Assembly: GCF_000001735.4 (NCBI RefSeq)
Contig: NC_003076.8
Coordinates: 20,463,835 to 20,527,834 of the forward strand
DNA from: Arabidopsis thaliana
Taxonomy: Eukaryota; Streptophyta; Magnoliopsida; Brassicales; Brassicaceae
DNA: 64,000 bases
Direction of reading: 5' to 3'
Part shown: positions 42,918-45,547 of the stretch, piece after piece
Position numbering within the stretch: the stretch's first letter is position 1
Layout of the letters: every line of letters starts with the position of its first letter
The notes under the pieces: model-generated
What the model saw: only the letters and a program-made list of their open reading frames with translations
Database searches by the model: none
What the model was told of the DNA's origin: nothing
Translations under genes and position numbers: made by a program

Positions 42918-44415
42918 GGGAGTAACGCTGTGACACGAATCTCCTTTGGATGTGGGGTTGCATTTATTTCCAGAAGAAGATACTTTTTGCATGCATATAA
43001 TTGGTGGAAAGTATAATATTAATAGTATAATACACACTTTATAAATATCTACTACGACTACGAAATCTTCCGGATTTCACTAAATTACAAAACAATAAAC
43101 CGCATGAAATTTAGTATTAGTATCTAACTATTCGTTTGACAAAAAAAAGTACAGATATGATCAATTAAGTAGATATTAGTTGAAGATAAGAAAAAAATAT
43201 AATCATGTAAAATGTCATGTGTCGTTTAATAGACATGTTATCTAATTAATTTTCAATCACTATTATTTCAGTACGATTCAATAGTTGTCCACATAACCTA
43301 TTTATAATCCAACTCAATGTAATTCTAGAAGAAGATACTTTTAGCATGTATATAATTGGTGGAAAATATAAGTAGTATAAAATATGCATATCTACTATTT
43401 TTTCAATGTTCCGGATTTCGGTGAGTTATAACAAGACTGTAACCTCATAAAAGTTTATAGACCATGAATATAGAACACAGTGCAGAATGGAAATGTTATA
43501 ACCGGCCGAAGTTAAATTTTCCATTATAATTATTTATTTTGTGTAATTATTGATTAAAATAAGAAAATGAGTAACTACTATTATGACGGTCCAAATTCTA
43601 ACAGAGAAATTATGAATGCCATGTCAGATAAATGCACAAAATATGTTGTGGTTAAACAATTGCAATGTGGTCATAATTTTTATTTTTTATTCAATTTTTT
43701 TACAAAAAATTTGTTAAAAAATAAGAACATTTTACTGCTTATAAGAATGTTTTGATAATTATTTAACCAACCATTTTTCTTGTAAATACTTTATATTTTA
43801 TTAAGATTCACTTTTATGGTTTGTAAAATATTTTTATAGTTTTGAAATAATAAACTTGTAAATTCATAAAATTATAGTTTAACTTTAGTTTTCTGATTCT
43901 TAAATATTGAACAATAACTAATAATATTACCAATTCATAGTTCCAGTGCCAACTCTTTAAGATAAATTAAATTGCATATATATATTGCATTATGGACTGA
44001 ATGTGTGTATATGTAACTATGAAGTATATGAACATGACGATGCCAACTCTTTAAGATAATTTAAATTTGATTGTTCATTGGAATCCAAATTCTTGAAATT
44101 TGACAACTTTAATCTTAAATTCATCAAAATAAGATAATTAAACCCGTATTTTTTAAAACTACAAGAAATAATTAAAAAAGAAAGAAAGAAATGTTGATGC
44201 ATATTTTATTGAACACTAGCACACTAATAAAACGCTCCTGTTTTTATTGTAGCTAGAACTTTGGTTGGATTATGATTTACACTAGATTTGCTTTAAAAAA
44301 AAAAGAAATTCAAGACATATTTTTTTATGGATTTAAAGTTTTTTTTTTTGCTAGTTCTCATTGGAGGAATTGGAACATTCTTAGGTAACATTCCTAAAAC
44401 CAGACGTTGTGATGG
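42918..44415. other. AT-rich intergenic region with a local duplication
   Basis: No supportable gene. A diverged direct repeat (about 42971-43090 and 43326-43436) is described separately. TGCCAACTCTTTAAGATAA also occurs twice, near 43947 and 44041. The right edge is the 3' flank of the SGPS-repeat peptide gene. Confidence 0.5.
42971..43436 (+). repeat. Direct repeat of about 115 bp, offset 355 bp
   Basis: AGAAGAAGATACTTTT, then GCATG, ATATAATTGGTGGAAA and later TTCCGGATTTC occur in the same order at 42972-43080 and 43327-43420. Spacer differences are small. It looks like a tandem segmental duplication of non-coding DNA that has partly diverged. Confidence 0.7.
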
Positions 44416-44751
44416 TCACCATAAATTCATATTTGCGTTGTGTGCAACCGGTGGTTCTTTGGTACTAGGTCCTGAGGGTGGAACAAACCATCTCCTAACT
44501 AGTGGTTCTTTGGTACTAGGACCTGAAGGTGGAACGAACCATCTTGTACCCGGTGATTCTTTGGTACTAGGTCCTGAAGGGGGAACGAGCCATCTTGTGA
44601 CGCGTATTGGATCAACTGATTTTTTAAGCAAACTTTCGGACTGTCGAAAATCTTCAGATTCATGTAAGAGGCTCTTCTTGTTGGCTTCAAGAACACCAAC
44701 AAAGAGGAGAACAAACAATGCTATCACAGTAAAAAAATTTGATTTCGTCAT
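44416..44751 (-). CDS. Secreted precursor with three tandem SGPS peptide repeats (IDA/PIP-like)
   Basis: An intronless frame of 111 residues starting at the ATG at 44751. Residues 1-23 are a classic signal peptide (FFTVIALFVLLFVGVLEA, then NKK). An acidic/polar spacer follows (about 24-51). Three copies of a 17-residue unit then come directly in tandem: RWLVPPSGPSTKESPG, RWFVPPSGPSTKEPLV and RWFVPPSGPSTKEPPV. The tail is AHNANMNLW. The 51-bp DNA repeats keep the frame exactly. The PPSGPS core matches the heart of IDA/IDL (PIPPSAPSKRHN) and PIP (SGPS) signalling peptides, which act through HAE/HSL2 and RLK7-type receptors. A multi-copy precursor would release several ligands. A TATAAA on the minus strand lies 47-52 bp upstream. 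I know no named gene for it. The antisense frame at 44327-44836 is longer but is less plausible. Confidence 0.72.
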   Translation of the reverse strand: MTKSNFFTVIALFVLLFVGVLEANKKSLLHESEDFRQSESLLKKSVDPIRVTRWLVPPSGPSTKESPGTRWFVPPSGPSTKEPLVRRWFVPPSGPSTKEPPVAHNANMNLW

Positions 44752-44797
44752 TACAAGATACTTTTACAAATTGTTAGAACTATTGACTATGTTTAAG

Positions 44798-44803
44798 TTT
44801 TAT
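44798..44803 (-). promoter_or_regulatory. TATA box of the SGPS-repeat precursor gene
   Basis: TATAAA on the minus strand, 47-52 bp before the ATG at 44751. This implies a leader of about 20 nt. Confidence 0.6.
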
Positions 44804-45547
44804 AACATTGTCATAAATCTTATCTTATCATCTTAGAACTAAAGAATAAGATTTAATATTTTCTAATATGGAATGTGTTCTAAGTATGGTACACTGAAGA
44901 TATTTTCCCGAAAATATTCTTTTTAATATATAGTAGATTTGACTGAAAAAATATAGGCAAAAACTATTATTTAAATAAATAATAAGAATACAATTCAACA
45001 TTTTATACCCCAAACATTTTCAAAATTTATCTTACCATCCAAGTTCATTGAAGCTCAAATTGTAATGATGATATCTTTATTCAAATATATGAATTACTTG
45101 TATTTTATTCCTTTTTTTGTTATCCAAAATAAATCTATAAATCTGAAAAACTTGAATTTCACTAACTATGGTTTCATATCGCTTATCTCATTGTGATGAT
45201 GAGATGATCTATATACAATTCCGTTGGAATCTGTTGGATTCCTGCTCTACCAATTCTTACAGTTGATCACCAATTCTTTATAAGCTACCATTTTGTTTTC
45301 AATGTTATGCGATTCTAATGTTTTCAATCTTCCACTATTTTACTACGATTTTGTTTTTCCTTTATTCACCTGACATTTCCAGTCGCAAACAATAAGCCTT
45401 AGTGAAACACACTGCACAAAACTGCAGCAAATGTTGCTCTCAAGACAAAAGACATTCCGGGGGAAACAAATAAAAAAACTCAGGAGAGTTATTTAAGATA
45501 AGCAAAAAAAGATACATCTTAAACTGATGCCATTTCGTTTTTCAGTT
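44804..45547. other. Intergenic region
   Basis: Upstream DNA of the SGPS-repeat gene and the 3' flank of the adenylate kinase gene. AT-rich, with no gene visible. Confidence 0.45.

Follow-up and report, generated by a model that had tools for sequence, protein, structure and literature searches.

What does a short minus-strand reading frame encode when it joins a signal-peptide-like start to three copies of an SGPS peptide motif, and where did such an arrangement come from? Within the window, by which we mean the whole 64,000-nucleotide stretch of Arabidopsis thaliana DNA that was analysed, minus-strand positions 44416-44751 encode 111 aa with three SGPS-KE motifs, with the ATG at 44751 and a TGA at 44416-44418, as given by the ORF listing and its translation. 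The ORF is probably AT5G50361, a name that follows from gene order and not from a sequence match, its neighbours being presumably AITR5 (At5g50360) and an adenylate kinase gene (At5g50370). Residues 1-23 (MTKSNFFTVIALFVLLFVGVLEA; 44683-44751, minus strand) form a signal-peptide-like start with a mean hydropathy of 3.31 over 12 residues, and the N-terminus resembles the signal peptide of the IDA-LIKE precursor IDL8 to a degree equalled by 0 of 1000 shuffles; the signal peptide was assessed from hydropathy and this similarity, and cleavage after Ala23 is a by-eye call. A variable polar spacer (residues 24-52; 44596-44682, minus strand) lies between the signal peptide and the repeats and had no detectable similarity to the IDL8 protein, 726 of 1000 shuffles equalling it. 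After the repeats the protein ends in HNANMNLW, directly followed by the TGA. By consensus match only, a TATA-like element was located 53 nt before the ATG (44798-44804, minus strand), with two further ones farther upstream, and two AATAAA elements 168 and 206 nt past the stop (44205-44248, minus strand); the IDL8 counterpart of the TATA-like element is found 60 nt before its ATG. When the 111-aa ORF was used as a query against the genome (119.66 Mb, 7 contigs), only the self-match was obtained at E up to 0.001. A PDB sequence search gave three matches at E up to 10, with a designed protein at the top (0.012), and eight stretches of viral contigs fitted the pattern with no relatives among them; these candidates were discarded, as were the sub-cut-off Pfam matches Gram_pos_anchor (0.04) and NAD_kinase_C (0.31).

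Tandem Repeats Finder assigned a period of 51 and 3.0 copies to positions 44446-44598, with a score of 229 that was the highest of 14 rows in the window (runner-up 102). Together with the translation, this places unit 1 (RWLVPPSGPSTKESPGT) at 44545-44595, unit 2 (RWFVPPSGPSTKEPLVR) at 44494-44544 and unit 3 (RWFVPPSGPSTKEPPVA) at 44443-44493, all on the minus strand. Each unit comprises 17 residues in frame, and VPPSGPSTKE is identical at the amino acid level in all three. The layout given in the original prediction, with a signal-peptide-like start, a polar spacer and three in-frame 51-bp repeats of VPPSGPSTKE, thus agrees with coordinates, translation and repeat detection, and its proposal of a three-motif, probably secreted precursor is supported by the three cores and the signal-peptide-like start. 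The units differ from their consensus by 12 changes. Only one of the five changes in the 13-codon core is non-synonymous, as few occurring in 1.5% of 20,000 random placements, compared to five of the seven changes in the 4-codon linker, a contrast of small numbers given 12 changes in total.

The string PSGPSxKE occurs genome-wide at four sites belonging to two loci, three of them in the window and one at C5:584308-584331. The latter is part of a 95-aa precursor ending in MLPKNVPIPPSGPSRKETPPSPPRSV, which is probably IDL8 (At5g02591), listed with 95 aa in Table 1 of PMC4526919 and termed an outlier by its authors; the identification is by chromosomal place and length, both of which fit, since the accessible text of that paper prints no sequence. 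A genome query with IDL8 at E up to 10 returned IDL8 itself and the window locus alone (two candidates scored), the match to the window showing 58% identity over 31 residues (E 3.7e-5), including one TGA and extending past the stop. When 4.5 kb of the window was compared by pairwise blastn with the 9.9 kb surrounding IDL8, two minus-strand DNA blocks were obtained. One begins 13 nt upstream of the ATG and spans the signal peptide (44672-44764; 71.6% over 95 columns, E 6e-6); the other is at the 3' end, mostly past the stop of the window ORF (44340-44422; 78.3% over 83 bp, E 4e-14). The next match had an E of 0.04. Both blocks are collinear with IDL8, one at each end of the gene. These alignments show the window locus to be a dispersed IDL8 paralog, with common descent at both ends. 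The kinship with IDA/IDL ligands that had been proposed earlier is borne out by this homology, and the paralogy itself had been overlooked.

In the codon alignment, the in-frame TGA (44416-44418, minus strand) takes the place of an IDL8 Ser codon. The 18 codons that follow it (44362-44415, minus strand) read PSQRLVLGMLPKNVPIPP in the window versus PSQRLIFRMLPKNVPIPP in IDL8 and represent a vestigial IDL8-type C-terminal segment past the stop (E 3.7e-5). They differ by six synonymous and three non-synonymous changes (dS 0.65, dN 0.08, dN/dS 0.12), and random changes were equally conservative in 176 of 20,000 trials. Farther on, the former SGPSRKE position now reads MRTSKKK and the core is lost (44341-44361, minus strand). 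The ancestral C-terminal motif region lies beyond the in-frame TGA and had been missed in the earlier reading. A common Trp is residue 60 in IDL8 and residue 111 in the window ORF; the offset of 51 residues equals three units (3x17), which could be fortuitous given that the two spacers show no alignment. With the last 62 residues of the window ORF as genome query at E up to 10, IDL8 was not returned; ORF queries miss IDL8 because the strongest homology is situated beyond the stop. A direct BLASTP pairing of the window ORF and IDL8 yielded 9/12 identities in the motif (E 4e-4, single comparison). Derivation of the units from an IDL8-type motif found no support at the DNA level, where 18, 22 and 32 of 500 shuffles were equal, and unit 3 plus the spacer showed no similarity to IDL8 residues 23-60 (613 of 1000 shuffles equal for protein, 117 of 500 for DNA). 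When 111 open stretches from the 9.9 kb around IDL8 were compared with the window, the only two matches with E no higher than 1e-3 fell at this locus, so there is no block synteny with IDL8 at the 9.9-kb range.

VPPSGPS is encoded at 10 of the 34 sites of a degenerate-pattern search, corresponding to six distinct loci when the organelle copies and their nuclear copy are treated as one. The five loci outside the window are CEP13 (L011), IDL1 (L024), an IDL-like frame on chromosome 5 (L040), an organelle frame (L038, L039, L018) and L013. At four of these, inspection by eye revealed an open frame with a Met and a signal-like segment upstream of the motif; at L013, judged likewise by eye, VPPSGPS lies in an open stretch without an evident signal peptide. 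The degenerate pattern itself shows no excess (34 sites vs 50 for the reversed pattern), and the permuted heptapeptides PVPSGPS and VSPGPSP had one DNA match each, none reading as the peptide. PPSGPS without the Val was less specific (43 sites vs 37); among 30 loci sampled from the 43 sites of this pattern, seven read PPSGPS, three of them being signal-bearing precursors.

An open frame with MARIRSAKYCFFFF...MPVPPSGPSKQHN was observed in two copies on the 367,808-bp contig C6, which we take to be the mitochondrial genome, and in one copy on C2 near 3.44 Mb (organelle-type frame copies: L038 363-782, minus strand; L039 361-780, minus strand; L018 1156-1575, plus strand). This frame is a predicted IDA-LIKE-type precursor in organelle DNA. 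The IDL-like precursor L040 (1255-1551, minus strand; C5 near 5.79 Mb) carries YPVPPSGPSRRHN and a second motif, PSGPNRRH, and by its chromosomal place lies outside the Table 1 loci in the accessible text of PMC4526919. L011 (1354-1635, plus strand), taken as CEP13 from its place and ending, contains an internal LPKGNVPPSGPSDKGH resembling the IDA motif, and the CEP end VPSPGVGH is also present. A 69-aa SGPS precursor was found at the chromosome-4 coordinates given in the accessible text of PMC4526919, its length being that stated there for PIPL7. This agreement, together with a 100% match of an IDA query to the genome, is the basis for taking C5, the contig that holds the window, as A. thaliana chromosome 5.

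For comparison with known families we used ten comparators, namely IDA, IDL1, IDL2, IDL4, IDL5, IDL8, PIPL7, CEP13, L040 and the mitochondrial frame, which took in seven of the 20 genes that PMC4526919, as accessible, lists in its Table 1 and left out the other 13. Among these ten, IDL8 had the top raw score for tail, unit and N-terminus; the z-scores of the unit against shuffles were 8.2 for IDL1 and 7.0 for L040, both above the 6.7 of IDL8. IDL8, IDA, CEP13, L040 and the mitochondrial frame all remained below the Pfam cut-off, and the sub-cut-off matches QLQ (IDL8, 0.0033), YncO (L040, 0.12) and Toddler (L040, 0.15) were discarded.

The window gene shares with IDA and the IDA-LIKE proteins the format of a small secreted precursor with an N-terminal signal peptide, supported by hydropathy and IDL8 similarity, a PPSGPS core matching S(G/A/V)PS in three copies (IDL1 has VPPSGPS), and, through the collinear IDL8 blocks, homology beyond the short motif. 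Unlike them, it has TKES or TKEP instead of (R/K)(R/K)HN after the core, ANKKS instead of an Arg right after the signal peptide, a residue called conserved in the accessible text of PMC4526919, and three internal motifs instead of a single C-terminal one, which is degenerate and past the stop. IDL8, accepted in the IDA-LIKE family in the same text, is likewise without (R/K)(R/K)HN and has RKET. IDL8 further resembles the window locus in the collinear DNA at both ends, an M(A/T)KS signal peptide, the Trp followed by PSQRL...MLPKNVPIPP, and the SGPSxKE tail without HN; it differs in having one C-terminal motif and no repeats, whereas the window gene has three internal units, the TGA and a lost ancestral core. 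PIP2, PIP3 and PIPL1, each with two motifs, resemble the window gene in carrying more than one SGPS motif per precursor (PMC4526919, PMC4154866, as far as accessible), but the PIP/PIPL arrangement of SGPS followed by a C-terminal GxGH is not found, GxGH being absent from the 111 aa, and three copies in exact 51-bp units set the window gene apart. CEP13 (AT1G16950), a group II CEP, has an internal VPPSGPSxK (VPPSGPSDKGH in L011) as in the window gene, but only a single internal SGPS, and it ends in VPSPGVGH; the group II ending VPSPG(V/I)GH is missing from the window ORF with its HNANMNLW end. CEP9 is also a multi-copy precursor with five motifs according to the accessible text of PMC4526919, but these are CEP motifs, not SGPS. 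IDA-like CLE motifs of the PVPP type (PVPPSGPSPCHN) have the VPPSGPS core of the window gene but end in HN, and a triple repeat is unmentioned in the accessible part of PMC7552357. The absence of HN and GxGH emphasised by the original prediction is therefore correct for both, but the lack of HN is not unique, IDL8 having PPSGPSRKE. Since PSGPSxKE occurs at only two loci in the genome, the window and IDL8, we regard this lack as an IDL8-type tail.

The same DNA is also open on the plus strand, where an overlapping antisense ORF of 169 aa (44327-44836) is judged a shadow ORF. That it is instead the real gene, and the minus-strand ORF its shadow, seems very improbable to us, even though it is the longer of the two, has a hydrophobic start (2.65 over 12 residues) and shares its wobble positions with the minus frame, so that the core/linker contrast cannot choose the strand. 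Codon usage shows no preference for the sense strand either (-4.09 nats per codon for sense and -4.08 for antisense on the same DNA with 9 open stretches as a crude training set; -4.01 for plus and -4.09 for minus over the whole open stretches), and in the same search the antisense frame matched the IDL8 antisense over 46 columns (50%, E 4e-8), compared to 20 columns (80%, E 9e-6) for the interrupted sense match. Against this, the antisense stretch of IDL8 has no Met before the common block and is closed by a stop that lies across from the coding sequence, what has been published as IDL8, with accession AK221754 (PMC4526919, accessible text), is the sense frame, and a signal peptide occurs together with VPPSGPS on the minus strand only. 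Neither ORF, at 111 or 169 aa, passes the Pfam cut-off. Our preference is for the sense frame, since it is the one in which IDL8 is published with an accession and in which the window shares the IDL8 signal peptide and C-terminal block. Still less credible is an origin de novo or as a chance minisatellite that resembles IDA peptides by accident. PMC3049755 places AT5G50361 among the lineage-specific genes confined to A. thaliana, and its accessible text leaves birth versus death of such genes open in general, but collinear IDL8 homology at both ends contradicts such an origin unless the blocks are convergent, and thus argues against birth of AT5G50361 from non-coding DNA. Moreover, VPPSGPS stands in signal-bearing frames at four of the five other loci and the permuted strings are absent as peptides.

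With little more than even confidence, we consider the locus an IDL8 paralog acting as a working multi-copy precursor in which the ligand part has been replaced, possibly near the edge of decay. Arguments for function are the unbroken frame and the contrast of cores with linkers, and those for decay are the TGA, the loss of the original motif and the predicted interruption in A. lyrata. A serious possibility, though short of an even chance, is that an IDL8 paralog that once used its C-terminal motif gained the repeats by tandem duplication and is now non-functional here and in A. lyrata. The TGA in frame ahead of a conserved block and the replacement of SGPSRKE by MRTSKKK, which weigh against the functional reading since they are compatible with decay too, fit this course, and the dN/dS of the 18 codons between them suggests coding until fairly recently. 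Frame-breaking changes of the repeats in A. lyrata or other accessions had been named in advance among the evidence against the original prediction, and this is partly the case: AT5G50361.1, which is this ORF by gene order, is among seven loci with GeneWise-predicted interrupted ORFs in A. lyrata (PMC3049755, accessible text). On the other side, the 111-codon frame is intact with its signal peptide and all three cores, and the replacing changes gather in the linkers, not in the cores.

If the locus is such a working precursor, the ligand-bearing part of the ancestral protein would have been replaced by the three internal units. The protein would enter the secretory pathway, cleavage may occur near the Arg-bearing unit borders (VTRW, GTRW, VRRW), hydroxylation may modify the prolines of VPPSGPSTKE, and as many as three nearly identical SGPS-KE peptides could be released. 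This multi-ligand, hydroxylated scheme has precedent: some PIP precursors carry two SGPS motifs, and PIP1 is more active when hydroxylated at position 6 (PMC4154866, accessible text). The receptor would probably be whatever reads IDL8 and not HAE/HSL2, because the tail is KE and Pro-rich, as in IDL8, and not RHN. According to the accessible text of PMC4848090, HAESA binding of IDA without its C-terminal Asn is undetectable and exchange of Lys66/Arg67 to Ala weakens the binding, so a TKE or TKEP end is not expected to make a good HAE ligand. HAE agonism by the window peptides is thus unlikely, and IDL8 with its RKE tail would by analogy meet the same problem; alternatively, the peptides might act as weak competitors at a HAESA-class receptor. 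In the accessible literature naming IDL8 alongside abscission, no receptor for IDL8 is given. We tentatively suggest, while considering it rather unlikely, that IDL8 and the window gene belong to a separate SGPS-KE group of IDA-like ligands that lacks RHN and has a receptor of its own, the window gene having exchanged a single C-terminal ligand for three internal tandem ones, a change of precursor architecture caught in the act.

In the literature searched, as far as accessible, AT5G50361 was found only in PMC3049755. The strings VPPSGPSTKE and PPSGPSTK were absent from this literature, subscription papers and supplements being outside it; the accessible texts of PMC4526919, PMC4154866 and PMC7552357 and related titles and abstract openings contain no triple-motif SGPS precursor, and the window locus is absent from Table 1 of PMC4526919 as accessible. 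Through the IDL8 homology, a gene filed as A. thaliana-only gains a parent family, which argues against de novo origin, and a peptide-hormone precursor comes into view whose ligand would have shifted from the C-terminal end to three internal copies. The IDL8 tail, with its lack of RHN, now looks like a subclass and less like a one-off. If the peptides are active, their SGPS-KE tail would directly test the reach of the terminal HN rule for HAESA-class receptors.
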